A DNA stretch of 64,000 nt from Pagrus major (lineage: Eukaryota; Chordata; Actinopteri; Spariformes; Sparidae): NCBI RefSeq assembly GCF_040436345.1, contig NC_133221.1, positions 30,158,589 through 30,222,588 of the forward strand. Reading direction: 5' to 3'. Shown here in pieces: positions 8,301 through 56,851 of the stretch; positions within the stretch are counted from its first letter, which is position 1; every line of letters starts with the position of its first letter. Both the position numbers and the translations under genes were made by a program. The notes below the pieces were generated by a model that was given only the letters and a program-made list of their open reading frames with translations, made no database searches and was not told where the DNA came from.

Positions 8301-11300
8301 AAAATAACCCATTAGAACAAGCAAATAAAAAATAACATAAAATAAAATGCTGTCAGTTATCACCAGGGCTGGTATTTCTGGGTCCCTAAACAAAATCTCC
8401 ATACGTAAAAAACTGAGCAGAGAACATTTTTAATTGACTCTTTTGGGCCCTTGTAGCCTTCGCGGCCTGAAGCAAGAGATCCACATGGTAACAATGGCCA
8501 TTTTATGTGTTTGTTACATAGCAATGGTGTAGAGATGGCGGGACACACGAGATTGAGATGAGAAGGTTACTCAGCCAGATCCAAATAGAGAAATCCACTG
8601 CCCAGTATGATAAGTTAATGATGTCATCAACAAATATTTTTTTAACATATGTCATTAAAGCATAATGAATATTTGATTAATATTGAATTTCTTGGGGGAT
8701 TTGTTCCTGTAATGTACTCCACAATATCAACGAAGGTGAACCCTGCATTAATATTTAATCTTGTTTCTCTTTCCTTTAGTGCATGCCTGTGTTAAAGTGT
8801 AGTTTTCTGATCGGGAGAGGGATAGATGGTTATAGATCAATAGATGCTGTATAGATAAAGCTTAACGTTTTTGTTTCTGTTAGTTACTATATGTCAGACT
8901 CCCCCCCTGCACAATCAAGACACACAGTATATTATATTACAGAAACTGTCAGTTGTAGCAGTACCACTGGGTTGCTTCATGCTTGAGGCAAAAGAAAAAA
9001 AGACTCATTGTTCTTCTGATTTTTCCTTAATGTTGTGTCTTCCAGACAACCTTTTAGTCTTGACAGTTGCAACCAAAGAGACTGATGGCTTCAGGCGTTT
9101 CTTGAGGTCGGCTAAACACTTTAACTACACCGTCAAGGTAGGAGCCCTGGAGCAAGTTCCTTTGCTACTCTCTAGCCATGAAAGCCTCTCTGTCATATGC
9201 TTTAAAATAAAACAAATTCATGTTTATTGTGAGTCATAGTTTTGACTCTTATGTAACAATTGTTTTTACATTTAAGACTTTTCAGTGCATTTGGGTCACA
9301 GAAGTAAGCCACCATTTTTGTCAAAAAGAAGTAAAACTTTGATTTTTTTATTGTGGTATCTGTAAGGTTCTGGGACGAGGTCAGAAATGGAAGGGAGGCG
9401 ACTACATGACAGCTCCAGGAGGAGGCCAGAAAGTACGACTCCTGAAAACAGCTCTGGAGGAGATGAAGAAACAGGACAAAATCATCCTATTTATTGAAAG
9501 GTACAGTGTCTTCACTGCAGGTGTTGTGGAATTTCGGCTCTCTTGACCATTCAGGATAGATGAAGAACACTCAGAGACACCGATGACTTAAGTTGAAGTA
9601 GATTATACAAATTTGCAAGGAGGAACAAAATAACAGCACATCTGTCTGCACAGAGTGATGCCATGATAATCCTGACAAGTCTTCCCCAATGTTCAGATTA
9701 TATCTACAGCTCAGGAAGCATCCCTCCCATACATGGTTATCTGTTTAACAACAAGGAAGGTGAAGTTATCGCTGAGCATCTCACCTCTGGCCAAGTGAGG
9801 AATAGGAGTACCATAGATAGATCGAGGCCACCTTACGAGTTTCACACAAACAATCAGCCTTGCTTTGGCTTGGTGTGTCGGACATCTGTGCTGTAGACAT
9901 CTCTGCAGTAGCTTCGAATCACTAAGTTGCAGAGACCATGAGATATAAACTCATAGAGCAGACATCACTATGCCTTTATCCAGACCTTAACATTTACACA
10001 GGATACGTATGACGTCCTATCGTATGAAGACAGAATGTCCTGGGAGAATCATATTTTTCTCCCACAGCAGGCACAGTTTCACATTTGACTGCACCTGTCA
10101 GAAGTGATGGCCAGACTAATACCTTGGTACAGAAGGAGTTTTGGATGAACACTTTCCAAATCACATCAGATGTGTCTCCTAGTCTTCTAGGCCACCATTG
10201 TTTTCCATTCACTGCATTTTAGATGAACTGATTTTTTTTTTTGGGATTGATAAAGTGATTGGGATTGTCTGCAGTTATATATGCCGAATAAGTCAATCAG
10301 TCTTCTTCTGCATTACCAGACAGTATAGTAAGGATTTTTTGATTCAAGTGTAGGAAGAATACTCACACACAGCATTGAGTGACTGTGATTAAATATGTGA
10401 TATCTCTTCATAAAGTTGGTTGTTTTCCTCGTCACATTGACTGTTAGGCTGTGTGTCTGTTTTGTAGTCTGTAGTCTGTAGTTCATTTAAAATCAATTTT
10501 GGGAAATATGCATATACAGTATGTTCAGATAGATCTCAATCTCATGTGTCTGTGTAAAGGGACAGTTAACCCCAATTTTAAAAACACATATTTTTCCTTT
10601 TACCTGTTGTGCTCTTTATCCAATATTGGCTGTAGACATGTCTGCCTTCCGTCGAATATAATGGAACTTTTCAAAAACTTAACACTGATGTCTCTTTCCA
10701 GAAAATCATGACCCGGTTATTTAAGATAATCCCTAGACCTTGTAGTGAGCAATTTAATGTAGGAGCGGTTTTCTTTCTACTATTTTACAGCGCAGAACGA
10801 AGTGTGCATCTGTTCCTGAACAAGATTCTTGTGCACGTGACATTGTGGGATTTAAACACTAATGGCATCCTCTTAGGCCAAGCTGTAATGTTAGCTAGCT
10901 TAGTTAGCCTAGTTAGCTAGCCCCTCGATGCACTCTTTTCTCCTTGCGGTGATACGGTTGGCGGGTGTAGTTCGGTGGAAAGAAAATAGTTCCATTGTAT
11001 TCAAGAGAAGGTTTAGCAACTCACACCAAAGCAATTTAGATCAATAAAAAGCACAAAATGTAAGAGGAAAAATAGACATCAGGATATGGTTAGCCTAGCT
11101 TAGCATAAAGACTCGAATCAGGGGGAAACAGCTAACCTGACTCTGTTCAAAATTCAACTGCCAACAGCTCCAAAGCTCATGGATAAGCATGTTTAATATG
11201 TACACAATGGGAAATGTCAAAAGGATAATATGTTGTTTTAGGCAAATTATGCACTGGAACTATTTCTTGACGAACAATAGTGTTCATTTACCCTGGCTTT

Positions 11301-14300
11301 TTCATTAGCATGCTACCAAACCTGACAACCTCACTGTGAAGGCAGTCCCTGAATTGTTGTTTGCCAAGCGACTGATGTGGTCAGTGATAATGTGATTCAG
11401 TATCAGCTCAGTTTGAAGATTCTCTGTTACATTGGTAGATGGATGAAATGGACAGGGAAAAAAAATATATTACCCAAATTGTTGAACTATATCTTTGATG
11501 CAGCCCTAAAATTACTGTGATAAAAGTCAGATATGGGAGTTTCTGTGAAAAGGCTTAAACATGGGAAACCCACTGATTCCATTCTTAAACACACACATGC
11601 TTTTATCAAGAGAGATTGGATGTGTTTTTTCAGTTCCTTTTATGCCAGTAAACACAACCTCTGGCAACTTAACTCTCCAAATAAAGAATGCTGGCATCTC
11701 ATAAAGTCAACCCCCTCATTTGTTTTAACTATGCCACTGGCTTCACACACCACTGAGCCACACAGTGCAATAAACTTTCTGTCTATTTATACTCCCTCTT
11801 TGACACAGCTACGACGTGGTTTTTGCCTCGGGTCCTAAAGAGCTGTTGAAGAAGTTCCAGCAGACCAGACACAAGGTGGTGTTCTCCTCCGAGAGCCTCA
11901 TCTGGCCCGACAGACACCTGGAGGACAAACACCCCCATGTCAGGGAAGGCAACAGGTTCCTGGGCTCAGGGGGTACGTCCAGCAGTGCTGTCAGTCACAC
12001 AGCTGGGGCAGCCCACATGGCTTCATCTTTTCACATGATGTCACTTTTTCCCCTGAATTTGTTTTTTTCAGGAGGTGCTTACTCTGTCTGTCTGTGCAGT
12101 ACTCCTATAAATCAAATAATTTGTTCAAGGTTTTAGGCAGAGATCAACTGAATACAACAAACCAAAGGTACTCATCCAGTTTAAAGTTTCCATGAAGGCA
12201 AAATTAATGTTTAAGTGCTTTTTGTATGTTTTCACATACTGTTTACTGTGTCCTGATCTCGTCTCACCTATACGCTGGTATAAGGCCCAACAATGGCAAA
12301 AAAAGGGTAATTTTGTAGGGACTCTTGCATTTTAGAGTTCGAAACTTTCTGGAAAATGATTTTTAAAAAAATGTTGACTAGTCATCCTGCACTTGGGGTG
12401 TATATCAGTGTTCAGTCCAAAAACACCTTTTTATGTTGTGTCATGAATATATAAAAGGACGCCACAGATGCAGCTTTGTTGTTAAAGTAACTGATGCTAA
12501 TGCAGCTGCCATTAGGTGCAGCTAGCAGTCCAATTTGCTGACTCAGTCCCAGGATGCCAGGAGCCAAACCCAATAAAAAAACACCTTGGTGCCATATTTC
12601 GTGTTGTCAAAATGGCCACAGTCTTGTCAGAGGCCGTGTTATATAGTCCTGGTCTGGCTGTGTTCACTGTGAGCTGCCAGTCTATAGAATCTGTGGCAGG
12701 GGGGCGTAACTCATATTTAGCTCTACTGACTACTTGAAACATAAATCACTATCTGCGACAAGTCCCTCTACAGCTGCCTGTTCTTACAGGAAACACATAA
12801 CTATGCCAAAGGAAACAGAACTCCAATTGCTGTTCCATGGAAACGACTAAGGCACCCTGTGGAGATTTCACCACCAGTTGCACTACAGAACAATGTCTTG
12901 AGTGGGTCCTTATTTGTTGATGTGGTTATAATGTTTGACCACAGGGGTGATGAGACACAGTCCTGGCAATGGTTGTGTACTATTCCACTGATCTTCAGAT
13001 GGATGTAATGTGCCAGTAAACACAACACAAGCTGCAGTTAGCTGAACAATATTTCATCAATCACCATCATCCCCATTGAAATGATTCTGACTGGATTCCA
13101 AACTAAACTGTCAACAAAGACGCCCCAAAAGCTTTACAACACAATATAGCTTTCTGACATGTACAGAGTGGTTCCGCCTGCTGTAAAGCACCTTATCCGC
13201 CTGAAACATGACAGCAATTCATTGAGCACACAGTTCGCTTAAATTCAGCCTGTGTCTTATTGACAATGTGACAATTATTTAAATGACATTTCACACTTAG
13301 TAGTAAGCAGTTTACCTGTTAGAGCCTCTCAAAGGAAACAACAACAGACAAACTGATTATAAAAGCTGGTTATTGATCACTGAACTTGTGTATAACTTTA
13401 GGTGATTGTTCAAGACCTTATAGTGGTATTGTTACATTATACATCCACCATGTTTTTGTCCCTCCCAGAAACTTTTTCACATCACCTAATGTAACCCCCA
13501 CGACGGGGCAACCATGTGCATCTCTTTATCGTATTCTTTACCTTTGCACACCACATATGATAAAATCTTCACTTGCCCTTAAGACCTTTCTGCTTACACC
13601 ACTCTAACATAAATATCACTATCTGATAGAGAGTGGCAGGGATGACACACCTGGAAGTTTGCCCTGATTACCTCCACAAAAAGGACTTTTAAACTGGATT
13701 TTGGATTCTTGCAGAAAATAAGATCTGTGGTAAACACAAGTTTATGATGCCTGTATGTTTTGATAAGCAAGATAATGTTCCCAGATGAACACTTGCTTAC
13801 TTGACTATGATTTTTGAAGCGCACAGTTTCTGAGTGCAACACCCTGTTGTAAATACAAATCCCAGGTCAGTGACAGTTTGTCAGATGTAACGAAGGTGCT
13901 AACCACGAACAAAACTCATTACGTCATAACAATGTTATGTGTTGAAAACTTGTATGTTGAAGTAAACATGTATGTAACACTGTGATCCTACCCTCTCACT
14001 GAAGTTACATAGTGCAGAAACAAGTGATAGAGACAGAGACACCATTCACCCTGTTACAAGACGCTGTACCATCAACATGATTTTGAAGCTGATATTTTAA
14101 GGTAGAAAAGTTACATAAAGTTGCTTTAAAAACCCGTTCACACTTTTCAATTCAAACATTAGGTATTTACTAACCTATATTATGTTGTAGAATAAGACGT
14201 GACGATATCTGAAGCTTGTGTTAACCACAGACCTCATTTCAGTCATTTAACAGAAAAGTCATTTAAAAACCACTGACTTTGAGACCAGGGATCCAGAAGC

Positions 14301-17300
14301 TCAAAAATGCTAATTTATTACAGTGTTTTCACTCTATACTACCTGTACATCGCTTAACACTGTTATGTTCATGTACACAGCAGGTGCGGCTGTAGATTTT
14401 AGTCTTGTCTTAATGACATGCTTGATGTTTGAAGAAAGGACCGTGGCCTGTTGTTTTTATAGCAGAGAAACAGCAGGTCTGTAGTCAGCCGTCACTGCTG
14501 GGCCGAGCCCATTCAAACCCTGCTGCAGTCATTAGTCAAGGCAATTTGAAACAGAGCACGTTTATTTGAGTTCATCTTTAAGATTATGGAAATGAAAATA
14601 GGTTTGACTTGCATTCTCACTTCCTGTCTGTTTCCTCTGGGTTTGTTTCTATCCTCAGGTTTCATTGGCTACCTTCCCAACATCAAAGAAATGGTTGCTG
14701 ATTGGACAGGAAAAGACAACGACAGTGACCAGCTGTTCTTCACCAAGATTTACATTGATCCAGTCAAAAGAGTGAGATTTATACATCATCTGCTGTGTTG
14801 ACAGCTGTACTTTGATTTATTTCATTTCATTAAATACTTAGTACTAGAGCTACTAATAACAGTAATGGTAGCAATTCATTTTTAACATTGTTATATAATT
14901 CCTCTGGGATATTTTATTATGTGCCATTAATTTATCAAATATTGACCTCAGTTCTACAGAGAACCGGGCCTTTATTTTTAATTATATGTCATCATATTTG
15001 AGTAACAAGTCTTCCCATTTTTTTATTTGTTGCTTTTAATGCAAACTCAACACTTCCTCCATGTCTACCTGTTGTATTGTATTGTTGTGTTCAGTATAAC
15101 GATTATTTCTAAAGAACTGATTTTAACAGAAATTCTGCTTACACAATACAAGTTAATTATTTCCTCCTGTCAATGAGACTCAGCACTTTCTGCACAGATG
15201 TTTCAGATTAAAAGCCAGTAGCTTAGTGGGCTTAATCCCTCCTGTTTCTGGTCAAAGGAAGTGTTGAGTTTTATTGAAGGTAGTTAAACGGTAAAAGAAA
15301 AAATCAACAGTTTAGAAGTGACTGGAATGAACTTGTGAATGAAAACAGTATTAGAGAGAGAAAGTTAGAGCAGCAGGGTGGAGAGTATTACATGACTGTT
15401 GTTGTACTGATGGAAATGGTGCTGTGAAAATGGACATTATACTGAATTTACCATGTTAGCTGAATGCAGGTTATTTCATCCAACCTCAATATTCTTGACC
15501 CAGCCTTCTTTATTTTTGGGCTCAGTTTGACACTCACTAGTTCAATACTGCTTTTATTTGTGAATTAACTACTAATATGAATGCAGCATATCACGCGTAA
15601 ATAATGCATTTCCATGTTTCAGAAATCCATAAATATCACATTGGACAGCAAATGCAGAATGTTCCAGAACCTTCATGGAGCCCTGGGTGAGTACCTGCGA
15701 TTAAGTTTCTTAGTCTGGTAGTGAAATGTATGAAACAAAGACATGCCTCTGAGACACACCGTCTATTTTACTGGCTCCAGAGGTCTGTGCTACAATGTTA
15801 GAAATGTTATGTGCACCTTTCCAATTACACCTTTTAAGAAATTGTATGTTTCTTATCACCTAGAAGGCAGCTGTGCTTCATGCAGTCTACCACATGTGAC
15901 ACTAACCAGCATTCTGTCTTGTAAAGCCAGATACTCGATTTTTGGGGCTGATGCAGATTTATCATGTACACACATCTTTTGTCAGTGATCCCTTAAATGT
16001 ATGCATTATCCTTAAACAATTGCAGCAGATGGGGACTTGATTTAAAACTTTAAAAATGAAAATATATATATGTATATATTTATATTAAAAATGGCTCCAT
16101 AGCTCGTCCGACATAATTCAAGTCTCTGGAAGCCCCAAGATCTCAAATTGATTTCAAAAGAAGTTATTTAAATCCTTTTTTAAAGGAAAATCTCCACTGT
16201 AGCTGCTAAAACGTTAGCATGTGCCCCTCTGAAGCTACAGTTAAGATTTTGGGGGGATTTTGGGGATTGCAGGGTTTTTGCAGGGACTTGGATTATGATA
16301 GATCATTTATACTGATTTTATTTATTTATTTATTTTTATTTTTTACTTCAGTTGTTTAGGAGAATGCTGCAACTCTGTTTTGCTGTGAAGCTCCAAAATG
16401 TTTTGTGGACTACAAAAATTCACCCGACTTTTCATTGGGATGGGGATGTTGACGGATGTTTATAACAGCTGAATTTTAATATTTGGGAGAAAAGTTCATT
16501 TAAGATTTTTTCCTCAGTAGTAACTCTATCCTCAGAGGTTTCACAGCTGAAGGGTTTGCAGTTGCTCTAATTTAGATGGAGCTGCACGTTTAGACTTGAG
16601 CTGAACTCTCAACAGTCTGCAGCATTTTTTCCCTCTGAGGAGGTGGAAGGAATTTGTGAGTTCCATGTGAGATGGATGTGTTAGACAACATGAGTTTACA
16701 GAGTCTGTCTGTAAACTCTTTCATCATCTCCTTTTCCCTGTAAAAAGGTATTTCACAATAGTTTTAACAGTATATTTTTAGTTGTTGTTGTCAGTTGTGT
16801 GTTGAAAACTTGCATCTGTTGGTCTTGGAAGCTGTGTTCAGTCCCACTCTGGTGTCCTGCCGTGTTCATTGGGAGGCAGCTGAGCCCTGTTGGCCAAGGT
16901 GCCTCCGCTTGTAAACCAGGCAGACTTCAGTCAGCTAAGGGGCCACTTAGCACCAAGTCTAACGGTAGCTAGCTACAGTTAAGGTTAGCTAGCAAAGAGC
17001 AGCAGTCGTTGGTTACTCTGGTGATATGCTGCCCTCATATTTTTGGAGTTACCTTGGAATTCTGACAAATTACACCTTAAATCAAATTACCAAATTCCAG
17101 GTGATATGAATATCTGTAGTTTCCAAAACTACAGGAAGTGAACATGTGAAGGCTAAATTTGATGTGTGTGTGTATTTCCAGACGAGGTGGTGCTGAAGTT
17201 TGAGGACAGACGGGTACGAGCCAGAAATTTGCTGTATGATACCCTGCCTGTCATCATCCATGGAAACGGACCAACCAAGGTATTGACCTATCGATCCGTA

Positions 17301-20300
17301 CTGACCAATCACATGTTACACACAGCAGGCTGATAGAGCAAACCATCAGTAACTGTTGCCGAGATGCAGCAGGTGGTGCAGATGTTTAGAAGAGTGAGCT
17401 CCAAGCCTGTTCACAATGTGTAGTCACTTGTTTCAAATGTGAAGTATAAAACCGATACGACACTGCACGATTCCAGCTTGCAAAATGTGTGTTGTCAAGA
17501 CATCTTCCAGCAATGAGCAGCTAAATCAGGCATTTCTCGGACTGTGGACAACAAATTCATGAGTGGAAGGAATGATGAATTAACAGCCTTTAACAATGCA
17601 AGCAGACAGTCAGTGTGGTTCTCCTTAGTCTCTCTGTGAAATATGTTTCAATAGCAACCCCTCTATATTACTGCTGTCCTGTGAACATTGTAACTTCCTA
17701 CAAAACAAAAGGCAGATCTGCTGCATGTCCTCTTTGTTCCTTTAAGAAAAACTCAGTATCCAAGACATGGCATATTTTCAGATGTGTATTCTCTATACTA
17801 GACATTAGACTGAGATGTGATAACCTGCAAAAACACACGTTTGTTTTCCAGCTCCAGATCAACTACTTGGGTAACTACATCCCCAACACGTGGACATTTG
17901 AGAATGGATGCACAGTGTGTCACGAGGACCTCCGCCCACTCAAAGCTCTTAAGGTCTATTCACAGGCAGTTGACTACACTATTGAGAATTATAATAACTG
18001 GGTGCATTTTCCATAAACATTTCTCCAAATAGGTGCCAAATCTATCAGCTAACCTTTCCCTTTGAACTTGAATATGATGCTTGTTTTCTTTTTGCCAACA
18101 GGAGAGTGAATACCCACTGGTGGTGATTGGCATCTTCATTCAGCAGCCCACCCCCTTTGTCGCAGTGTTCTTTGAACGTCTGCTGAAGCTTCAGTATCCC
18201 AAGAACAGGCTCAAACTGTTGATTTTCAACCAGGTAACAGGAGAACATGTAATTCATTAACTTTTTCCTTACATCCCCAAAGGCAAGTGTATTTCTCTGA
18301 ACTGTTACAGCAACAAAATAACTTCACCTGAAAATCAAGCTTATATAAAACAGGTAGACAGGTAGAGATGTGCTGATAACATTTTTTCCTTCTCAATAAC
18401 GATTCTGATACATGAACTTGCGTATCGGCTGATATTGAATACCGATCTGATACCAGTGTGTTTTTAAAAAATGCATAACATTATTATTATTATTATTATT
18501 ATTATTAACAGCTGTAAACTGTCCTGTATGGATGTGACATGATTGCTGTTATTGTTGTACAGCCTGGCTCACCCCTTTTTTTAAAAGATGAACACATACA
18601 TATGTTGAACGATGCTATAGAACTATCTATTATTATCTAGTTTGACAGTCATTACTTAAAAAGAACACAAATATTAACTAATGTAAGTTTGCTGACCTGT
18701 GTTTGAAGTCCCTCTTTTAGGGCTGATAAATTACGTGGTATCAGAATCCTGAAACATTCCTATAAGAGGTAGAGTATTTTTTATTAGACGAAGAAATCAA
18801 AATGTATACATATAAAAATAGAAAACTAACTACCAAGACAAACAATAATGTTTTGGGTTTTATGTTTCATTGATGTCACTCATTTAAGCCCCTTTCACAC
18901 ATGCACTGTAACTCTGGATTTTATTCAGAGTTTACTCGGAGGAGCTGTATGTGTGAACACAAATGTCTGCATTATTTGACTTTACCTTGCCAGGTCACAA
19001 ATCCGAGTGAGCAGAGCGTGAATAGAGCGAGTGGGTGTGTCGACGACTTGTCTTACCCCGTGTTAGGTGCCGGTTTAATCAGCTGTAACACATACTCAAA
19101 CATACACCAGGACATGCGAAAATAGCGTTATACTTCTGCAAAACATCTTGCCTGAATGTTTCTGCGCTCATTCTCTTGCACTTCCATATGGTTCCTTTAC
19201 GCTGCTGCTGGACACAGAATAATTATTTATTATGCTACAGCTTTTTTTCTACGCTGGAATTTTCAATGCACGGAGTGTAGCTGCTCTGCTTGCCTGTATA
19301 TTACATTCCCACTCCTTCATTGATAATGTGAATATGTCCAAATAAATGCAGTATTGATACCAACGGAAAAACAGCCATTGCAGAGAAGTCTGTAGCCTCC
19401 TAGGTGCCGCCCCCCACCCATACATAATATTTCCAACATGTGTGAACACGTCTGACACGGACATTCTCCTGTTGTGTGCTGCATGTGTGGACAAGCAAAT
19501 GTGGACAATATCCTGATCTAAGGTATGAATATAAAAACAGACTTGGAAAAAATAATGAACCCCTCTGAACCCAAATGATGAAACCTTTGTCAAAACCTGA
19601 ACACACATGCAGCATACACACTGCTGAGATCTGTCACTCACTTTTCCCAGTGAATTGGTTTCAGTGCAAACAGGAACTGATGTCTTCTTTTTTTAGGAAC
19701 TGTTAACTTGCTAGCAGCTTATGTAGTATGATGATGGTGCAGATTCACCAAAATGCCAAAGCATGATGGGAATTGTTGCACCAACACTCAGAAGCTTTGT
19801 CCCGATAGGAATGAATTAGAATACAAGCTCTAGGAGTAGGGCTGGGTTTAAAAAATGAATTTTCAGATTTTCAACCCAATCTTCATTTGAATGAACCGAT
19901 ATTGATTCATAAAATCCCCAAATCAATCCTTTAGTATTTGCCTTTTCCTGCAGATACCTGTCAGGGTCTGAAATTAGCACCCGCTAAGCACCACATGCAG
20001 GTAGATTTTCTGTTTGGAAAAGTAAGTAAGTCCTTAAATGCTATTGCCGCACTGACAGATAAATGCTTGTACCAAAACAGTCATGTAATTAGAAGCTATA
20101 TAGAGTCTAGAGAGAGTCTGAGAGTCTGCCTAGTTTTGGTGTACAATACAAATACAAACTGTTTGTATTGGAGTTTCACACTCAGCACAGGGACTTCATG
20201 TGGCATTCCGGTGCACTTTTACTATTTTTTGACCAAGGCGGGTTCAGGTGCTGGTTTGGAGCCAGTGCCTACTCTGAGACCAGTTCTTTGCATTTCATCA

Positions 20301-23300
20301 GCCATAGAACTGACTCCGGCCCAGGGAAACTGGAAACTCTGGTCGAAAAGGGATATTTGTAAACTCAGAAACATTTGCTTGAATGGCCACCATGGTTGTT
20401 TAAAATGGGATTCTTTTTTTTCTTATCCTGAAAATAATGTACAGTACATAGCATGTCTTGCTAAGACTATGTAGTGAGGGACTGTGCCATAAGCCTGTAA
20501 AAAAAGGCAAGTGTTTAACAGATTGATGCTCAAAAGTGGATAAACCTCTTTGCTTTTTAATGCCTCCATTTTGCCACATTATAACACTCAAGCTTGTCAT
20601 CAAAATAAAAGCCCTGCTATTCCACCCCTTGAAAAGCAAACAGAGTTGACTTTCATCTATAGAAAAAGCTACTGGCTGTGCAAACATGCACAATAATAAC
20701 AAGTTTGATCGTTAATCCAATCTCAGTAAGGGCCTGCCTTTTGCTCTATGCGTCAGTAGTAACTCAGACTCTCTGTTATTTGTTCTTCCCCCGCAGGAAG
20801 TTCATCACGAGCGCCATGTCAGCTCTTTCCTGCGTGATCATGGAAACCTTTATCAGGGTGTCAAGTTCATTGGGCCTGAAGAGGGGATGGATGGACCTGC
20901 ATCCCGCAACCTGGCCTTGTGAGTTCCCAGTAACCAGTGGATGACTGGATGACATATCTTGAGTTAGAAATATTTATATTTAATAAGAAACTGAGCTAAC
21001 AAATATGTGTGTTGACATTCATACTGTTTATGCAGAGCATGTGCCAGGACTGGTCTTGGATTTTGTTTAACATTCATCTTGTGTCTTTCCTTCCTCTCAG
21101 TGATATGTGCCGGAAGGACAAGGACTGTGAATATTTCTTCAGCATTGACATTGAAGTGGTCTTAAAGGAGGAGAACACACTCAAAATTCTAATTGAACAA
21201 AACCTGCAAGTATATTTATCAGTATTGAAGTATTAATAATAATCTTGTGCTAGCGGATGCCTTGGCGCTGCTGAAGTCAGGAATCATACATTGAAAATCT
21301 CGGCATTTCTATTTGACTAATCTATTTGCATGAGTTTTGGTTTTACTAACTGTATTTGGCTGGTTATAGAAGGAATATAGTAACACTGCTTTCATTGCTC
21401 TTTAGTCCTATTGTGGCCCCGATGATAACTCGAGTTGGTCGACTGTGGAGCAACTTCTGGGGAGCCCTCAGTGCAGATGGCTACTACGCCAGGTCCGAGG
21501 ACTATGTGGACATAGTTCAAGGCCGCAGAGTGTAAGTTGTTCTCTAACGACTTCACAGGGTCTTTTACCACGAAAGACTTTATATCATTGACAGACGAGA
21601 CTGATGAGCCACTGAATGAACTATTCAGACAGAAGACTGCAGAAATGCACCACATGCTCCGTAGAATTACTGACTACAAACTGCATGTGATTACAAGTCA
21701 TGAGTCTTTTATGTATTAGAAAAATCCTTAACAACATTATTCCACAATCGTAACGTGGTTCTTTTCAGGGCCTTAGTAAAAGATACATTCTGTTGAACTC
21801 ATAACCTACCATCAATTCTTAGATAAAAGCCTGTGTTCATAAAGCCAAACAAATAAGGGCCAGGTAAGAAGACGGAGGGGGGTGAAATTACCCATCACTC
21901 ACATGGTAAATTAAGCAAAATCAGTATAACAGAGTCATGGCAAACTCACCATTCTGCTGTTGTTACTGTCTTTATTTAACAGAACAGTCTTAATTTTGTC
22001 AGCTAGTTTTTCATGTAGTCTTTGCTATTTGAGCTAATCTAGTCCACCTCTTCCTGCTTGTTGTAGTCAACTGAAAAGTCATTTTAGTCTTCAAAGAAAA
22101 CAGTGACAATTTTAGTCTGGTTTTAGTTGATGAAAACTGTTGATATCTCAGTCTTAATAAATCATCAGATTGTATTCAGTCAGATTGTATCAATCTAGTC
22201 TTGGCCAAACCAAACATTTTGTCAGTTCAGACAATTGGACAGCTTATTTGTGTGTTGTAATATACTCACAGAGTAAGTACTTTATGTAGTTTATGCTGGC
22301 ACATTAACTGCAAACAGTTTTTGAGGTATGTTTTTGTCTGTAATTAGTTTTAATAATATATTCAAATTCATTTTGATGGTAATGTGGAGGACAAATTAAC
22401 CCAGCATTTAAGTAAAAGTCACAATATACATGCTAAAATACATCAGTTAGTAAGTTAGCTGCTCAGGTGTTCAGTGCATACTGGGCTGGTGTTTTTGATT
22501 GCAAGGCATACGGCTTTTAGCCAGTTAGCTCGCTAGCACGCTTTAGACCGTAGCTCCTACTGCTGCTTTAAATAAACGTGCAGTCTAAAGGGCACTGAAC
22601 TTAGTCCAGGGCCAAAAGCATTCTTAAAACCTCCCTAGCCCTAGGCGAGGAAGTGTTCACACAAGCTTCTCACTAACATACAATGAAATATTCTTCTAAA
22701 GCAGGAAATTAAGCCTGTCTCTAATACAGACCTGGTTCTGTCTCGCTATATGAGAATTTACAGAACTACTTTACTTTAACTAGATATTTTTTTAACTAGA
22801 TCTTTTCCTTATATATAGATCCTAGGGTCTGTATGTAGATTTTCTAACACTGTCTTGTTTTTTAGGGGTGTGTGGAACATCCCATATGTGTCCAGTGTGT
22901 ACCTGGTGAAGGGCAGCCTCCTTCGGTCAGAGCTCACAGAGTCCAAGCTCTTTAACTCACACATCTTAGACCCTGACATGGCATACTGCCACAACATTCG
23001 CAACAAGGTCAGTGAGAGAAAAGAAGGCTTCCATGTTGACTCAGTAGACTAACTACAGCACCTAAACGACTCAGTCATTTTTTGCTCCTTCTGATACTTT
23101 TTGTCATAAGAGGTCTATTTGGTGTAAGTCCTAATGAAACGTAAATGTTTATAACTGTAAATGTAATATTCTCCATTATAATACTTGACCTGTTGTGAAT
23201 CTTTCTCTCAGGGAATCTTCATGTATGTAAACAACATGCACACTTTCGGTCGCATCCTGTCAACAGAAAACTATCAGACCGTCCATCTTCATAATGATTT

Positions 23301-26300
23301 GTGGCAGATCTTTGAAAACCCAGTGGTGAGAAAACATCTACTTTGCACTGTTATTAGGACTATCTGTCTTAGTATTGGTGATAGGGTCAGTGTGTGGTGC
23401 TCACGCTGATTGTTTTTTATTGCAGTGGCAGTTAATAAGGTCATTGGAGATTAGCTGAGGTGGTGTGTATCAAACCTTTTGGAATGGTCCAAAGCTCTGA
23501 CCTAACGCAGGACTGAGGAGCTTTGTATTAAGAAGCTACAAAAGAGCTTTGATTAAAGTCTACAATTATTATTGTTATTATAATTTGGGCTTTTATACAT
23601 TAAGTTCTTTCTTTGTGTAAAATCACATTGTGTCTGTTTGTCTACATGTACATGTTTATTTGCATACAGAGCAGAGTAGTGAGATCTGATTACAAGTGGT
23701 CACTTGAATCTCATGTTAATGCAGGTGTGAACTGACGGACTCAGAGCTGTCCACTTGTGATCAGGTCACTCGGGACAGATGTTAGGACCAGGTCTGAACA
23801 GCCATTAAGTGTAATTCTTCAGTGTTGACTGTTGTAACCTAAAAAACTACAGTTATGTATTCCCACAATGCCCTCCCTCAGGCACTGAATCAGCCAATAG
23901 CTTGCCTCTAAAAATGACATGTCAGAGCTGCATCACATGGTTGTGATGTTAGATGCAGTTAGAAAGAAATACACTGTGCGATTGTGCTCATTTTCAATTC
24001 TTCCCCTTGTCATGATTCAGATTATTTCATTTTTTCTTGTCTCTGTGATGTAACTGAACAAGGCCAGGAGATCTTTGAGATTTCTGAAATCCTTTAGAAG
24101 CTAAGACCAAATCTTACCACTGTTTATGCACAGCTTTTTTTCTTAGTTCTACTTAATTACTCTTATAATAACACCTACCAGCCTTAGATCATCATTTCAA
24201 CAACAGCTGCAGTAATAGTAGCAGTTGTAGTGGCAGGGTTGTCAGCAGTAGGTTTAACAATAACATAAAAAGAAGCAGAGCAACAGCAGCAAAAATAGTC
24301 ATAATTGTGGTCGTTGTAAAAGTGGTAGTACTGCTGGTGGAGGTAGTATAGTAGTAGCATTGTCTGTCAGTGTAATTAAAATCTATGAAGGTCTTACATG
24401 CAGCATATTAAATACATGAACTGTGTAATAAGGAGACATTGTAAACATGCTCTGTATTTGTGTGCTTTGTTTTTTCAGGACTGGCAGGAGCGTTACATTC
24501 ATGAGAACTACACTTACATCATGAAAGACAAGCTGATTGAAACTGTAAGTTGTAATACCAGTTGACCTACAGACAGACAGATGACATGAGTTGTTTGCAT
24601 TGATATATAGTTAAAATGTAGGCTGGTGTTTTTCAATAGAAAGAACGCAACTCATTTAAACTCCTGTGTCACTGCAGCGGACTGCTGAGTACAAAGTACA
24701 AAGGTTACAAGGTTAATTGTCATTTTTTAAATCACAAGGGTTCAAAAAACAAAACAATGTTTGAGTCCTTTGTGCTACATCTATAAACGCATAATAGTGC
24801 AGTTTTTGTGGAATATTTAATGTCAACAAGAATCATCAAACAATACTTGACTTAGAATCTATTATATATTATACTAACAGTTACACTTTATTATACAATG
24901 CCATACCCATACAGTACCTTATATCTGATATTCTATTCAGGTGTACTCTGTGTTATATTGGCGTACTATTGAGTGCAGCAGGGATGACACATTTTTTTCG
25001 GCTAAGCATCGCCCTGGTTCCTTTGACAAAAGGCCTATAGGATCTTCAAATGGAGTTTGGTTTATTGCACAAAAAAAGCTCTGTGGCAAACACAAGTTTA
25101 TGAGACTTATATGTTTTGTCCGGCAAGACACATTTTGTTCATTCACAGATGGACACCACTTTTATGATTTTTGAAGCGTAGATTAAATTGGCTAAAGTAA
25201 AAGCAAATGGTAGGCTATAAACCAACACACTTGGCTACATATTGATTAATCTACAAATTGTAAAGTGGGATAAGCAAGTAGATGAGTATCTGTATTTGGC
25301 ATGATGAAGTCAAATGTCCCCGACAACTTCTGTTGTTCATTTAGCCACTTGTTAGCAACCGCGTTTTTTTATGACAAGTAAATGCTTTAAAAATGCTCCT
25401 ATATTTTATCTTATCTTATCTTATGTCTCACTGTGGCTTAATTGTGCCATGTCTCCTGCCCCCCAGCCTTGTCCTGATGTGTACTGGTTCCCAATCTTCT
25501 CTGATGTTGCTTGTGACCACATTGTTGAAGAAATGGAAAACTTTGGTGATTGGTCAGGAGGACGCAATACGGTTTGTTATCATATTATTAGTATTTATTT
25601 GTTTGTTTGGGTATTTTGCTGGCAGAATTAGGAGGGTTTGATGTTTAATCACTTGGGATTTATTTCCAAACTGACTCATTTTCTTGTTTGTCAGGACCCC
25701 AGAATCCAAGGTGGCTATGAGAATGTTCCCACAGTCGATATCCACATGAATCAAATCAACTTTGAAAAGAATTGGCACAAATTCTTACTGGAGTACATAG
25801 CTCCAATAACAGAGAAAATGTATCCTGGTTACTATACCAAGGTAAGACTTGTGAACACAGGGGTGGGACCATCATTGTCACACATTCTTATGAGATGGAA
25901 AATTCAAATAATCCCTCTTCTTAAACTGATCCCCTAGGTTGAACATGATTAAGAGGTTTTACTTCCAAAAGTGATGTTTGCCATGAAATGACTGTCCTCA
26001 TTTATCCTACTCACTCCAGCTTTGTTACAGAGTGGACATTGCTGTAGTGCTTGTACTGCCCAGAAGTGCACCTGAAATATGGGAAGGGTTACTAGTCAGT
26101 GTATCATCTGCAGTAGATGACTGTCAGCTCTTCCCCTGTGTGGAGAATCAGCATGGAGCACCGACAGGGAAGCAGAGCATTGTACTGCTAAATGTTACCA
26201 ACAGGAAAACTTTAGTATTTTAGCCACCTGAAAGGTGAGGAAGGAAAGAAAAGGAAGGCAATTCCCTGATGTACGAACACACTGTGGTAGCACCAGCAGT

Positions 26301-29300
26301 GATGTATTTTGGTGCTTTACATTGCCCTCAGACAGCCCTTTCCTTTGGCATAATACAGTGTGCAGCAGCAAAACTGGCTGACGGTAATGTAAAGTGCCAA
26401 AATGTATCACTGCCGGTGCTACCACAGTGTTGTTTGTACATCAGGGAATTGCCTTCCTCAGTCTTCAGCAGTAACTTCTGCTGGTAAGTGTGAGACATTC
26501 ATGTTGCTCATGTCTGCATCTTAACAACCAGTTACAAGTGAGTTTGGTGTCACGCATGTATTGCTCAATGTTTTGCACAGGGAAGGCAACTACAATGAAT
26601 GGTCAAACTTGTGTAAAAATTGCTCTGATATGACAAAATTGCAAGGTTGCGCAGAATTCACAGGGAATAGCTGATTGATCTAGTAGGAAAATGCCAAACA
26701 TTTGTAAGATAAAGCCAGCAGTTCAAAGACAATGTTAACATGTAATGCATTACAGTTAGGAATGGGATCGAAAGATTTTATCGCAGATCGCGATCAAAAC
26801 CACTCATAGTAAGTTGATTGTGGTGAATTTTTGTTATCGGGATGATCATGAATCGAGATGATGCTGAATATCGTCACAAGTGACTTGAAAAAGCTGTCCA
26901 GCCCGGTGACGTACAGTCCTTTGTTGGTTTCTTAATTCATTTGGAGTTGCCTAAGCCTGTCACCATGGCTGAAGGCATGGTTTGCACATTGTATCCCTCA
27001 CAAAAACGAGTTAAATCAGATGTGTGTAAATCAGATGTATTTCATTTTATTTATTTATTTGTTTACTAAACAGGGACAGTGCACAGCCTCTTAGCTCTAC
27101 TAGAGTTAGCTTTAAACTAATTTATATCTGCAGTCCCTGGGCAGGAGACAAGAAAAGACAGAATAAGAAAATAGACATTACAGTGTAAACAGTTACAAGA
27201 CAGCACATATTCACTGTACAAAAACATCATTATGGTGAAAATACAACAGATTCCTAAACGAAACTAAAAAGCAGGAGACGTATTTAAGATTCAATCAAAT
27301 CAATCAAAACTTTATTTATAGAGCACTTTTCATGCAGGGACATGCAACACAAAGTGCTTTACACATGAAAGAAAAAACAATTACAAGGAAAGCCCCACCC
27401 TCCATACTACACACACACACACACCTGCACACTCTCACTACTGACAATAGGGAGACATGGCAATAGGGAGACATGGCATGGCACTGAGGATTGAGAAGCG
27501 CCACCTGTTGGGCCGTCCACACTGGGAGGAGTCGCAGGCTGTGCCACAGGGGGCGCCAGCGCCCAGGCCCCCCGGCCCCGACAGACAACAACCGGCCGGG
27601 CCGAAGGGACCCAAGGACAGCACCCCCAGCAGCAGCCCAGACACAGCTCCCAGTGTGGAGGACCCCCCCTGAGGAAACACTGGAGTTAAACCTAAAAACT
27701 AAAAACATGAGATAGGATAAAAACCCTGACAAAAGATAAGTAAATAGAGTGAACAGTTAAAGGGATAAAAATACATAAGATAATAAATAAAATAGTACCA
27801 ATGATAAATAAAACAAATGAAATTATATAAGATTAATATCGTCTTAAAAAACAAGACAAAAGCAACAACATAAAATAAGATAGAACCACATAAGAACGTA
27901 AGAAGAATTTAAAATATTAGTTAAAAGCCTGATTGAAAAGGTGTGTCTTTAACCTTCCTAACCTAACCTAACCTTTAAGATTGTATGATTGATTCTTTCT
28001 AAATAAAAAAAGAGTTTCCTATCTGTGAGGCAATAGATATACTTAATAAACTACTTAATAAAGTGTTTCTAGATTGTTTTAGTGCAATTTCAAGAGTTTG
28101 AAGAACATTTTTGGATGATTATGAGGATATTATCATGAATCCCAGTTATGTTAGATAGCATAATCTTGAGATGACATTTTCATATCGTCCAATGCCTTAT
28201 TACACATATACTTGATATTCTATAGACTAACTGTATAATCATTTGATGTGTTGACTTATTGAAAATGACAGTAACCATCAGTTGCAGGCTTCTCATTGGC
28301 TCCTGTGCTGCTGCTGTCTGTGTACTCTGCTGATCAACATGTCTTCTCTCATCAGTGTGACACTCCCTTGAACTTTGTGGTGAGGTACAAACCTGACGAG
28401 CAGCCCCTGCTCGTCCCTCACCATGACGCCTCCACATTCACTATTAACATAGCTCTCAACAGCAAAGGCATTGACTATCAGGTAAATGAGGAGGAGCTGG
28501 CAGGTAATAGAAGCTACAGGACATGATGATGCAGGTGATCTGCACTTTCTCTGCTTCTCTGCTCCATCTCTTATCATCGCTGAATGCTGGACAGGGAACC
28601 GAGCTGAGGCTTTTCTTTTTTCAGCAGGAGCTGCGAGGGGCGTGCACACACTCCAGATGAGCAGTGTCTATGCGAATGCTTGCATGACTCCTTTCTGTCT
28701 GTGTGTTTGCAGGCTCAGTTTGACTTGGCCTTTGTAGTTAGATATAAACCAGATGAGCAGCCCTCTTTGAGACCACACCATGACGCCTCCACATTCACTA
28801 TTAACATTGCACTCAATCAGCTGGGCCCTGATTATCAGGTGAGTGTGTTCAGAGGTCGGTAGAAATGTGACTTGTTCAACTTATAGTTCATGGTCACTAC
28901 AGAGCTTACCAGTTGAATTATGTCTTTATTGTGGACTTCTTACCAAGAAAGTTAAAGGAACTTTTTGTTTTTTTAGGAATTTACAGAATTAGTATATAAA
29001 ACATTGAATGTTTTGATAAACATTTTTAGAGCTTCGATCATGTCTGTCAGGAAACACCTGTTTGGCTTTAAGCATCATTGTTCCCAGAATGCTGCATACG
29101 TCAACTAATTATTATTAACATATGAGTTTTTGAATATACTGAGAGTAGCTCAAACAACAGCATAGCACAAAGCATGGTGCTGAAATCAGAATCATGTAAC
29201 TGAAAATGGATGCCATCATATTTCTGGCATGTACATCTACATCCCTGGTGTTTCAAACTTTCCATTTGCGTCATGTCTGTGTTTGTGAGTCTGTCTTCTT

Positions 29301-31301
29301 TGCATGGCACATGGAGCTGAAGCAACGAGCCTTGTTTTTATTGTTGCATCCATGTTGTTTCCCTGCATCTCCAATAAACTGGATTAAACAACCAGCCATT
29401 AGGCCACACTATCAGAGATTTACATATAATTGACGAAGAATACTATTTCTATCGTCTGTGAAGCTATTGCAATGATGTGATATGCAGTGTGTAATTAGTC
29501 GTGCACGGTTTTCGGAGGGTTAAAGCTAACTTTTCTGAATATTTACATTGTTTAGGTATAATAAATGTATAATATTTGATTAATATTTAAATTCTAAAGC
29601 CAGCACCAGTGGTTGTACCTGCAGTATCACAATTAATCACTTAAATTCTCAAATTAAAGCCAGTATTGTGGAGCAGCTCAATTGATTTGAAGAAGGAAAA
29701 ATTGAGTATTTGGATCAATATAATGATATAATGATAATATATGTTATTTGAGCTTATCTGCTCAGGTGGATACATTCAAAAACGTAATTTGCCTTAAACG
29801 TTGACTTTTAGTACATAAGTTTACTGTAAAGTGTCACATTTAATGTTTTAAACCTTTTCTATCATGTTGAGTCATTGTCTATATATCAAATAACTTAGTC
29901 TGATTAAATTCAACTAATGTAGACTTATCCATAGAGCAAAATGTGTTCATTAAATGATTACATGTTATCATCTACATCTACATAACTGTAAGTGTTTATT
30001 ATTCAAGTATTAGACATAAAAGAAATGCACTTATTAAAATAATAATGATAAATAAATCACACATCTTGATTTGTAATTTATACACATGGACTCAACATGA
30101 TAGAAAAAATAAATGTGACCCATTACATTGAACTTCTGTAATGGAATTTAGATGGAAAATTAAGTAGCTGTTTTAGGCTAATTGTTAGTTTTTTGAAGGC
30201 AGATAAAAAAGAATGTAGGGAACTATTGATTTACACTACACACTTTACACATTTTTGTAGTCTCCAAATAATTTCTGGAGCTTCACAGTAAAAAAAGCAT
30301 TCTGACTAAAAAACTGAAGTAGATGGGGACTTGTTTTAAAATGGAAAACAAAAAAAAATCAGGAAACAACCAAAACAAACAAACAAACAAAAAAAGGGCT
30401 CCATACAGCCAACAGACGTTATTTAAACCCTTGTTGTGTGGTCGAGCTCATGCACCCGCTTCAGACTTTACTGAAGTGGGTGACTGAAGCCTTTAATCTA
30501 GCACCCACAGTGATTTCCGTTTAAAAGGGAGTAAACAACATCTTCTTAAAATCAATTTGGGATCTCTGGGCTTCATGAGGATCTGGACGAGCTGTATGGA
30601 GCCATTTTGTGTTTTTTTTATGTTTTAAAACAAGTCCCCATCTACTTCAGGTGTGTAGGAAAATGCTGCAGTGCTGTTTTACTGTGAAGCTCCAGAAATG
30701 TTTTGTGGGAACTTCACCCAACTAGATAATGATGGTTTTATTTCTGGGTAAACCTGTCCTCTAACATGGAAATAGTAGTTTGATAAAATGATCTTGACTC
30801 ATGGTCCACTTACTCACTTTTTCCTGGACTTTCATTCAGCTCTCATGGTCTTTAAAATATTTTATTTATGTAGCACCCTTCACACATAAAATGTGTACTT
30901 GGTGTAAATGCTGCTCCACACAACAAAGCACATGGAGAGCAGAGGAAACAAGCAGAACTATTAATAATCTGGGATCTGGGAAGTTTTTAAAAACTCATTG
31001 TGCCTGTGAAATATGTCCACCCATGGATTAAAAGTTGTTTGAAACACTTTAAATATTTGATTATTTGATTGTTTGAAACACTTTAAAAATGGGGGATGAT
31101 TCCAGCAGGAATTAAACTCATGCCTGCCTCATGTTGTGACTGCAGGGTGGCGGATGCAAGTTCCTCCGCTACGACTGCTCCATCAATGCCCCTCGCAAAG
31201 GCTGGGCCCTCATGCACCCGGGCCGCCTCACTCACTACCACGAGGGCCTACCTACCACCGCTGGTGTCCGCTACATCGCAGTGTCCTTCGTGGATCCCTG
31301 A
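5233..31301 (+). CDS. plod1: Procollagen-lysine 2-oxoglutarate 5-dioxygenase 1 (lysyl hydroxylase 1), complete
   Basis: This ER-lumen enzyme hydroxylates lysines in collagen X-Lys-Gly using Fe(II), 2-oxoglutarate, O2 and ascorbate. Coding exons: 5233-5323, 9046-9137, 9367-9500, 11809-11972, 14659-14771, 15623-15686, 17182-17279, 17852-17953, 18102-18233, 20797-20918, 21101-21205, 21406-21531, 22866-23007, 23212-23325, 24479-24544, 25467-25571, 25695-25841, then 28356-28481 or 28713-28838, then 31146-31301. With one of the two duplicated exons, all junctions stay in phase and give 732 residues (human about 727). Visible features: signal peptide about 1-23; N-terminal glycosyltransferase-like region ([12 protein letters not shown]); NIT and NYT glycosylation sites; C-terminal dioxygenase core with PHHDAST (iron His and Asp), THYHEGLP (third iron His) and [12 protein letters not shown] (2-oxoglutarate Arg). 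One intron is GC-AG. Confidence 0.96.
6576..7362. mobile_element. hAT-type non-autonomous element (MITE) with target-site duplication
   Basis: Perfect 15-bp terminal inverted repeats (TAGAGCCCGACCGAT at 6576-6590 and its complement at 7348-7362) bound a 787-bp element. They are flanked by an identical 8-bp duplication ATAAAAAC at 6568-6575 and 7363-7370. The 8-bp duplication indicates the hAT superfamily. Inside, CGATAT/ATCGGCC words are repeated near both ends. No transposase frame is seen. It lies in plod1 intron 1. Confidence 0.93.
7970..8330 (+). repeat. Retroelement-like fragment with a near-perfect hairpin
   Basis: At 8161-8188 and 8203-8230, 28-base arms pair at 27 of 28 positions around a 14-base loop. 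The left arm translates in one frame to GGFGIKHL, a motif type common near the ends of LINE reverse-transcriptase frames. The hairpin may therefore be an inverted duplication of a LINE piece. It lies in plod1 intron 1. Confidence 0.5.
9046..9500 (+). CDS. plod1: plod1 coding exons 2-3, start of the mature enzyme
   Basis: Exon 2 is 9046-9137 (92 nt) and exon 3 is 9367-9500 (134 nt); the bases between are intron. They encode [19 protein letters not shown] and then [12 protein letters not shown], part of the N-terminal glycosyltransferase-like domain shared by PLOD1-3. Splice sites are TCTTCCAG/acaac, AAG/gtagga, GTAAG/gttct and AAAG/gtacag. Phases are 2 to 0 and 0 to 2, matching their neighbours. 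Confidence 0.92.
9501..10557. other. plod1 intron 3, left part
   Basis: The block at 9520-10210 has the look of old repeat sequence and contains a 77-codon open frame, but I could not assign it to a family. A solo LTR was considered, but no matching target duplication or clear TG...CA ends could be fixed. No exon is seen. Confidence 0.35.
10558..11495. repeat. Dispersed percomorph repeat block (MITE with nested repeat)
   Basis: The block starts with GGGACAGTTAACCCCAATTT and ends near 11470-11495 with ACCCAAATTGTTGAACTAT, which reads as a diverged inverted copy of the start. Inside, GTCGAATATAATGGAAC at about 10652 is mirrored by GTTCCATTGTATTCAAG near 10989. A second known fish motif (CATAAAGACTCGAATCAGGG, AAACAGCTAACCTGACTCTG) is nested at about 11090-11160. 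It fills much of plod1 intron 3. Confidence 0.65.
11809..11972 (+). CDS. plod1: plod1 coding exon 4
   Basis: The exon is 164 nt and encodes [16 protein letters not shown] through [11 protein letters not shown] of the N-terminal domain. The acceptor is GACACAG and the donor GTACGT. It completes a Ser codon begun in exon 3 and leaves one base (G) that forms Gly with exon 5 (GGFIGYLP). The phrase FLGSGGFIGY is strongly conserved in lysyl hydroxylases. Confidence 0.93.
13620..14130 (+). repeat. Dispersed repeat family A, long copy
   Basis: The right part (13815-14125) matches copies at 3195-3380 (inverted) and 47285-47590. The left part (13630-13830) matches 24970-25190, including GTTTATGATGCCTGTATGTTTT and GATTTTTGAAGCG words. 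The right end AAAGTTGCTTTAA is inverted relative to the left end of the 47-kb copy (AAAAGCAACATTATGTAG), which supports a TIR element. It lies in plod1 intron 4. Confidence 0.7.
14659..15686 (+). CDS. plod1: plod1 coding exons 5-6
   Basis: Exon 5 is 14659-14771 and exon 6 is 15623-15686; the rest is intron. They encode [37 protein letters not shown], then [17 protein letters not shown]. The NIT triplet corresponds to a conserved N-glycosylation site of lysyl hydroxylase 1. Donors are GTGAGA and GTGAGT. Confidence 0.92.
16020..16440. repeat. Dispersed repeat family B, copy 1
   Basis: The block begins with GCAGATGGGGACTTGATTT, has ATGGCTCCATAGCTCGTCC inside, and ends in GTGAAGCTCCAAAATGTTTT followed by GTGGACTACAAAAATTCACCC. 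The same words, several inverted, occur at 30255-30720. It is probably a TIR-bearing MITE in plod1 intron 6. Confidence 0.65.
16835..17085 (-). repeat. Dispersed repeat family C, copy 1
   Basis: The block ends with AATTACACCTTAA. In reverse complement it shares words with 61650-61910: a GGTGTAATTTGT end, TAGCTAGCTAC/GTTAGCTA runs and the ACTGAACACAGC region. This suggests one MITE family inserted in opposite orientations in plod1 intron 6 and upstream in the Nudix gene. Confidence 0.6.
17182..18233 (+). CDS. plod1: plod1 coding exons 7-9
   Basis: Exons are 17182-17279, 17852-17953 and 18102-18233. They encode [44 protein letters not shown] with the Cys pair of GCTVCHED, and [20 protein letters not shown]. 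The last phrase lies in the central domain common to the PLOD family. The exon 8 donor (AAG/GTCTATT) is weak, and the intron after it is only 148 nt; the reading frame nevertheless continues exactly. Confidence 0.92.
20797..21531 (+). CDS. plod1: plod1 coding exons 10-12, with a GC-AG intron
   Basis: Exons are 20797-20918, 21101-21205 and 21406-21531. Exon 11 encodes [20 protein letters not shown]. To join to exon 12 ([20 protein letters not shown]) in frame and without extra residues it must end at 21205, so intron 11 starts GCAAGT and ends TTTAG. This is a GC-AG intron with an otherwise consensus donor. A GT at 21210 is phase 0 and would put exon 12 out of frame. Exon 12 carries the conserved [17 protein letters not shown]. 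Confidence 0.92.
22866..23325 (+). CDS. plod1: plod1 coding exons 13-14
   Basis: Exons are 22866-23007 and 23212-23325. They encode [34 protein letters not shown]-like sequence, then [16 protein letters not shown] and [13 protein letters not shown]. These match the conserved PLOD region before the dioxygenase domain. Splice sites are TTTTTTAG/ggg, AAG/gtcagt, TCTCAG/gga and GTG/gtgaga. Confidence 0.92.
23660..23810. repeat. Dispersed repeat family D, copy 1
   Basis: The block contains GAGCTGTCCACTTGTGATCA and ACCAGGTCTGAACA. It resembles 50735-50850 (inverted) and 51590-51660, both in rhoa intron 1. It lies in plod1 intron 14. Confidence 0.6.
24479..25841 (+). CDS. plod1: plod1 coding exons 15-17
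   Basis: Exons are 24479-24544, 25467-25571 and 25695-25841. They encode [16 protein letters not shown] (with a conserved NYT glycosylation site), [20 protein letters not shown], and [20 protein letters not shown] up to MYPGYYTK. This is the start of the Fe(II)/2-oxoglutarate dioxygenase fold. Exon 17 ends in phase 0, which lets either duplicated exon 18 follow. Confidence 0.94.
24965..25190 (+). repeat. Dispersed repeat family A, partial copy
   Basis: The block shares CAGGGATGACACA, CTCTGTGGCAAACACAAGTT and TTTATGATTTTTGAAGCG with 13630-13830. It lies in plod1 intron 15. Confidence 0.6.
26229..26475. repeat. Long inverted repeat (fold-back element)
   Basis: Arm 26253-26326 and arm 26383-26457 are inverted copies of about 75 bases at roughly 90% identity, around a 56-base centre. 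Shared words include AATTCCCTGATGTAC and CTGTGGTAGCACC. Weaker pairing extends outward to about 26229 and 26475. It is in plod1 intron 17 and is probably a MITE. Confidence 0.85.
26755..26900. repeat. hAT-like relic
   Basis: A short block of GGGATCGAAAGATTTTATCG and GATCATGAATCGAGATGA words resembles the TATCG-rich ends of hAT-type elements in fish. No ends or target duplication could be fixed. Confidence 0.3.
27290..27720. repeat. SINE-like dispersed repeat and GC-rich block
   Basis: The segment at 27295-27365 (ACTTTATTTATAGAGCACTT, ACACAAAGTGCTTTACACAT) matches a very common fish repeat tail. It is followed by a CA run at 27410-27425 and a GC-rich stretch at 27500-27665, where all frames stay open because of composition. 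No exon of plod1 lies here. Confidence 0.55.
28356..28481 (+). CDS. plod1: plod1 exon 18a, alternative iron-binding exon
   Basis: This exon has 42 codons, phase 0 at both ends, with acceptor CTCTCATCAG and donor GTAAAT. It encodes [16 protein letters not shown], then [19 protein letters not shown] and SKGIDYQ. The HHD supplies the first two Fe(II) ligands (His and Asp) of lysyl hydroxylase. It is homologous along its whole length to exon 18b, 231 bases downstream, but differs at the start (CDTPLN against AQFDLA), before the iron motif (LLV against SLR) and at the end (SKGI against QLGP). No stop, frameshift or damaged ligand is seen. It joins exons 17 and 19 in frame, so it looks functional. 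Confidence 0.88.
28713..28838 (+). CDS. plod1: plod1 exon 18b, canonical iron-binding exon
   Basis: This exon has 42 codons, phase 0 at both ends, with acceptor TGTTTGCAG and donor GTGAGT. It encodes [16 protein letters not shown], then [19 protein letters not shown] and QLGPDYQ. The [19 protein letters not shown] start matches mammalian PLOD1, so this is the orthologous exon. Use of both exons 18a and 18b would keep the frame but duplicate the strand that carries the His-x-Asp pair, which would probably misfold. Mutually exclusive use is therefore inferred. Confidence 0.94.
30255..30720. repeat. Dispersed repeat family B, copy 2, with long inverted arms
   Basis: The left arm (about 30257-30400) and right arm (about 30590-30715) are inverted copies: TTTCTGGAGCTTCACAGTAA on the left against its complement near 30678-30700, and GAAGTAGATGGGGACTTG on the left against its complement near 30633-30650. 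It matches the block at 16020-16440. It lies in the last plod1 intron. Confidence 0.8.
31146..31301 (+). CDS. plod1: plod1 last coding exon, third iron ligand and 2-oxoglutarate site
   Basis: The acceptor is GACTGCAG and 51 codons run to TGA at 31299-31301. The peptide has [31 protein letters not shown] (the His after THY is the third Fe ligand) and [12 protein letters not shown], whose Arg binds 2-oxoglutarate. The DP terminus matches PLOD1 exactly. Confidence 0.96.

Positions 31302-50401: not shown

Positions 50402-56851
<6,450 letters not shown>

Follow-up and report, generated by a model that had tools for sequence, protein, structure and literature searches.

What appears to be the plod1 gene of the fish Pagrus major carries two adjacent copies of the exon for the HxD segment, which provides two out of three Fe(II) ligands in lysyl hydroxylases, enzymes that modify collagen. 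This arrangement raises the question whether both copies are working exons and whether splicing picks one of them at a time, giving two forms of lysyl hydroxylase 1 that differ around the active site. We addressed it in a window of 64,000 nt (GCF_040436345.1, NC_133221.1, 30,158,589-30,222,588 of the forward strand), and all coordinates below count from the first letter of this window.

The plod1 gene and its two copies of exon 18

The following features define the locus:

5233..31301, forward strand: plod1 gene with 19 exon positions, exon 18 being duplicated; 2199-nt CDS for 732 residues with either 18a or 18b
25695..25841, forward strand: exon 17, ending in YPGYYTK, phase 0, donor AAG/GTAAGA
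28356..28481, forward strand: exon 18a, 126 nt, phase 0 at both ends, AG and GT borders, 42 residues with HxD
28482..28712, forward strand: intron between 18a and 18b, 231 nt, GT-AG
28713..28838, forward strand: exon 18b, 126 nt, phase 0 at both ends, AG and GT borders, 42 residues with HxD
31146..31301, forward strand: exon 19, carrying the C-terminal end and the stop
699..1757, reverse strand: fragment of a neighbouring gene with a DUF2152 domain (PF10222, E 3.2e-87), upstream of plod1 and on the opposite strand

A preliminary description of this DNA had placed two open, phase-0 exons of 126 nt with proper borders and a common HxD segment at these positions, and all of these particulars were as described. 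Either copy, used singly, indeed links exon 17 to exon 19 in frame, and the full reading frame assembled with either one has a single stop, at its end. Exon 1 was picked by eye. Exon 11 ends in an apparent GC donor (CT/GCAAGT, 21206-21207) that would make its intron GC-AG, and this end keeps the frame.

In the 18b form, the C-terminal 142 residues find matches in human LH3 (E 1.9e-71) and in mimivirus L230 (E 8.4e-39) and show the HxD...H arrangement of the PLOD family within the C-terminal 2OG-Fe(II) domain, and the Pfam model 2OG-FeII_Oxy gives nearly equal scores for the two spliced C-termini (43.7 and 43.4 bits). The DUF2152 neighbour is of the KIAA2013 type, and KIAA2013 adjoins PLOD1 in human; this neighbour and residues of LH1 type point tentatively to plod1 rather than to plod2 or plod3. 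A search of the window with six short strings for other neighbours, mitofusin among them, gave no downstream mitofusin. Elsewhere in the window, an open frame at 52056-52478 weakly matches a Sleeping Beauty transposase HTH (39 bits, below the Pfam cut-off of 43), and 54921-55289 matches Ras-family GTPases, with a Rho-type gene as our guess.

The two exons are adjacent, equal in length and phase and, as had been claimed, homologous from end to end, sharing 89 of their 126 bases and 32 of their 42 residues; they thus differ at ten residues rather than at the roughly 12 first estimated. With a tblastn E value of about 5e-18 between them, we judge that their likeness is not due to chance. When the peptides of all exons but the first (2-17, 18a, 18b and 19, i.e., 19 peptides) were searched against the window, neither a third copy of exon 18 nor a duplicate of any other exon appeared at E<0.1. 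Pattern searches of viral and prokaryote contig collections, which are not meant for fish, returned 68, 45, 52 and 39 matches and not a single confirmed relative. Both donors had been called good, and by an approximate matrix, with the exon 11 donor scored at a wrong position, that of 18b ranks second and that of 18a fourth among the 19 donors of the gene. Human LH1 is 18b-like at this point, and 18b would accordingly be the usual exon of LH1, with 18a as the additional copy.

Constraint on exon 18a

Between 18a and 18b, dN is 0.265 and dS 0.974 by the method NG86, and 0.250 and 0.761 by LWL85, values that make the duplication look old and constrained at the protein level. The likeness of the exons is high, with a score of 102 against a maximum of 26 among shuffles, and the flanking 150-nt intron pieces stay within the range of 300 shuffles. 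LH3 and L230 agree at 21 of the 42 columns, and both fish copies keep 19 of these, while in the other two (670 and 675) 18a and 18b carry the same change. All ten residue differences between 18a and 18b, in turn, sit among the 21 columns where LH3 and L230 differ as well (P 2.4e-4), and the same is true of nine out of nine once a gap column is dropped (P 4.8e-4).

In neutral simulations that assume an 18b-like ancestor and let 18a drift (2000 runs per mutation load), we asked how often at least 32 residues stayed identical while at least 12 synonymous changes accumulated. At load 0.2 this joint result was reached by 8 of 2000 runs, and by none of 2000 at each of the loads 0.3, 0.4, 0.6, 0.8 and 1.0; the residue threshold taken singly was reached by 1.2% of the runs at load 0.2 and by none at higher loads. 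Under a model with constraint (omega 0.2), the joint result appeared in 44% of 1000 runs at load 0.3 and in 53% of 1000 at load 0.4, and in 18%, 4% and 0.6% at loads 0.6, 0.8 and 1.0, respectively. The frame stayed open in 19-49% of the neutral runs, and an open frame by itself is therefore weak evidence. Across these tests, which rest on one sequence pair, an assumed ancestor and four proteins, protein-level constraint is apparent on both copies and 18a does not look decayed; the exon pair is real, looks old and is probably functional.

Proposed choice between the two exons

The reading that we favour, and consider rather probable, is that of an old tandem duplication whose copies both still code, are held by purifying selection and normally serve as splicing alternatives. 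Exon 18b, with its stronger donor and its likeness to LH1, would be the default, and 18a would stand in for it in certain cells or at certain stages. The two resulting mRNAs would encode full-length forms of lysyl hydroxylase 1 that are ten residues apart and share the residues for Fe(II), 2-oxoglutarate and the dimer pocket, and the cell could probably make both forms by picking one exon. Alternative use of 18a and 18b is likely on this evidence; 18a would then be included in mRNA, and splicing may, as the preliminary description proposed, choose exactly one copy.

How such exclusivity would be enforced is less evident from the locus. Joint inclusion gives a protein of 774 residues and joint skipping one of 690, both in frame, so that the reading frame does not police the choice, and frame-based NMD is not supported as enforcer. 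This in-frame joint inclusion and a spacer that permits normal splicing of 18a to 18b agree with 18a being a cassette exon that is sometimes joined with 18b, which would add a 42-residue insertion and a second HxD to a probably misfolded or regulatory LH1. We regard this as unlikely, because the constraint pattern is that of a working catalytic exon and because a second copy within the beta-barrel should be hard to fold.

For alternative splicing as we favour it, several further enforcing devices were considered. The AG that most closely precedes the 18b acceptor is at 28663, and the branch point of 18b is thus expected within the next 46 nt, where no YTNAY motif occurs and where A28687 is the sole adenine in a TNA context. 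This likely branch point lies about 205 nt from the 18a donor, far beyond the steric limit of about 50 nt given in a passage of PMC7969005, which speaks against steric crowding; distant branch points are not supported as enforcer either. The splice sites flanking 18a and 18b are GT-AG and by eye of U2 type, and visual inspection of the donors gives no support to a U12 mismatch. An RNA fold across 28300-28900 is no more stable than its shuffles (z 0.43, one fold). In a crude count over 18 exons, the surroundings of 18a come second in the density of PTB-type motifs, a signal that is not strong enough to build on. Frame or NMD, crowding, U2/U12 mismatch (by eye) and docking RNA (by the one fold of 28300-28900) are all without a sign here, and an exon pair can belong to the mutually exclusive class without such a device. 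Protein factors, rather than frame or crowding, may decide which exon is chosen.

Four features in and between the exons may bear on this choice:

28377..28424, forward strand: RNA hairpin in 18a with a 9-bp tip stem (GACGAGCAG/CTGCTCGTC) and a 9-bp outer stem, absent from 18b
28380..28385, forward strand: cryptic donor GTG/GTGAGG in the outer stem of the 18a hairpin
28610..28627, forward strand: decoy 3' splice site (CTTTTCTTTTTTCAGCAG), pyrimidine-rich, in the spacer between 18a and 18b
28681..28686, forward strand: UGCAUG, a candidate of Rbfox type that abuts A28687 and is the only TGCATG in 28000-29150

The spacer between the exons has pyrimidine-rich stretches as candidate signals, and joining exon 17 to its decoy 3' splice site would shift the frame into an early stop, yielding an NMD-type product. 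The hexamer UGCAUG is the motif bound by Rbfox-type proteins. Under the general Rbfox rule, a position upstream of an exon represses it and one downstream favours it, so that this site would repress 18b and favour 18a. Rbfox bound beside the 18b branch point might accordingly block 18b and aid the upstream 18a. Around one such hexamer in 18 introns of 231 nt is expected by chance (231/4096), and the window holds fewer copies of TGCATG (38) than its shuffles do on average (54), so the site, a weak candidate for a switch, lies within chance expectation. A point in favour of the Rbfox reading is that PLOD2 splicing is reported to be regulated by RBFOX2, both in a passage of PMC9666651 and in the title of Seth and Yeowell 2010.

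The hairpin inside 18a was first noticed in a wider fold and then tested, and the P-values that follow are those of a preselected feature. The piece 28376-28425 folds to -28.1 kcal/mol (z -6.6, with none of 200 shuffles as stable), compared to -3.3 for the matching piece of 18b, and the whole of 18a has a z of -2.86 (one of 200 shuffles as stable) against 0.89 for the whole of 18b. Across the 20 exon sequences tested, the longest perfect stem (loop of 3-10) is its 9-bp tip; 9 bp were reached by 0.24% of base shuffles of 18a. Among synonymous encodings of 18a, 7 of 20000 drawn with usage weights and 5 of 20000 drawn uniformly are as stable as the 48-nt piece itself (-27.3), whereas the most stable of 169 overlapping control pieces taken from the same CDS reaches -16.9. 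By the approximate matrix, the cryptic donor in the outer stem scores 3.85 and the true donor of 18a 5.41; splicing from the cryptic donor would retain 24 nt (8 codons) of 18a. By concealing this donor or exonic signals, the hairpin may shield 18a from shortening or tune its inclusion. One arm of the tip stem encodes the LLV of 18a, which is SLR in 18b, and part of the protein difference could hence be a by-product of RNA structure or of a template-switch mutation.

A stable hairpin could also hamper the definition of 18a, and 18b owns the stronger donor and is the LH1-like copy, all of which would suit a relic that is rarely or never spliced and has remained open since it was lost only lately. 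We consider such a relic improbable given the dN/dS values, the limitation of substitutions to variable columns, the outcome of the neutral simulations and the intact splice sites on both sides, although a very recent loss is conceivable. Extending the favoured reading of alternative exons, we tentatively propose, as a possibility only, an old and conserved tissue-specific switch of the LH1 catalytic exon that is tuned by the 18a hairpin over its cryptic donor and by the Rbfox site at the 18b branch point.

Active site, known exon pairs and implications

One stretch of the two exons is free of differences:

28419..28450 and 28776..28807, forward strand: identical block of 32 nt at the HxD core of otherwise diverged exons

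Within the block, 10 consecutive codons are identical (P 0.038 by permutation), which is suggestive of gene conversion and no more; either conversion or codon-level constraint is possible. With the core of the block left out (32 codons remaining), dN is 0.373 and dS 2.17, the latter saturated. That the second copy was brought in from another plod paralogue by conversion or assembly artefact, to which the block and the human LH3 residues of 18a at 651 and 682 might point, is very improbable, as 18b is likewise LH3-like at 646, 663 and 665, overall closeness to LH3 is about equal (28 of 42 residues for 18a, 29 of 42 for 18b), 18a is flanked by proper splice sites at either end, and 37 of 126 differing bases speak against a duplicated read or haplotype. 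Bit scores against LH3 are 58.6 for 18a and 57.2 for 18b, and against L230 that of 18b is higher (42.6 versus 36.7). Neither copy, as far as these comparisons go, is clearly the LH3-like one.

In LH3 numbering, the residues that differ between two alternatively spliced forms would be 646-649 and 651, then 663 and 665 near HxD, and finally 681, 682 and 684 after it. The His and Asp that the preliminary description had named as Fe(II) ligands (H667 and D669) are kept in both copies, and Y656, T672 and F673 are likewise identical in 18a, 18b and LH3. In the LH3 structure, according to a passage of PMC6082870, H667 and D669 hold the iron, Y656 bounds the 2-oxoglutarate pocket and T672/F673 shape the dimer pocket. 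Since these residues are the same in both copies, any functional difference between the forms is likely to be fine-tuning, and an altered substrate preference or cofactor affinity is our guess.

Tandem homologous exons that serve as alternatives are well known, mostly ancient and often tissue-specific, as stated in passages of PMC9741552. Like 18a and 18b, the pairs of KHK, OGDH (4a/4b) and FGFR (IIIb/IIIc) are adjacent homologous exons of which either completes the protein, though for the pair described here alternative use is predicted from genomic sequence. KHK is the nearest enzyme parallel that we found: its swapped region adjoins the ATP site, and the catalytic arginine is kept in both isoforms (passages of PMC9741552). 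In OGDH, exclusivity is enforced by branch points that lie 25-41 nt away from the donor of exon 4a (passages of PMC7969005), unlike the distance of about 205 nt to the likely branch point in plod1. The vertebrate tandem pair of U2AF1, exons Ab and 3, resembles ours in that a stem-loop near one copy correlates with inclusion, but this stem-loop lies upstream of the branch points and the fish hairpin inside exon 18a (passages of PMC5224494).

Within the PLOD family, PLOD2 has an alternative exon as well, 13A, which distinguishes LH2a from LH2b. Unlike a duplicated catalytic exon, it is included or skipped and encodes 21 residues of the accessory domain near the glucosyltransferase site (passages of PMC8055892), agreeing with the earlier remark that the PLOD2 exon lies elsewhere in the protein. 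A splicing change in PLOD1 itself is reported upon TDP-43 mutation in mouse and in fibroblasts of ALS patients; it is the skipping of an otherwise included exon, and the passages concerned make no mention of a duplicated one (PMC5983119). Among the matches listed, titles and the opening lines of abstracts describe no duplicated PLOD1 exons, the passages of papers naming PLOD1 or lysyl hydroxylase together with mutually exclusive exons contain no such PLOD1 exons, and 'PLOD' occurs 0 times in the main texts, supplements aside, of PMC9741552, PMC5740500, PMC12159805 and PMC5703972. Tandem alternative exons are known as a kind, and a PLOD1 catalytic-exon switch, which the preliminary description did not know to have been described, was found nowhere in print among the matches listed, supplements and subscription journals aside. 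Annotations of fish genomes may well list two plod1 isoforms already.

Human tandem exon swaps cover 14% of residues and 10.7% of predicted ligand-binding residues, a shortfall blamed mostly on events in protein tails (passages of PMC9741552). Active-site residues are the same across lysyl hydroxylase isoforms, and their specificity may depend on secondary structure in the LH domain (passages of PMC13382579). If the proposed exon choice is true, splicing would swap the segment with two of the three iron ligands, an uncommon and directly testable tuning of an Fe(II)/2-oxoglutarate dioxygenase, and the swap could help to reveal what sets the substrate preference of lysyl hydroxylases.
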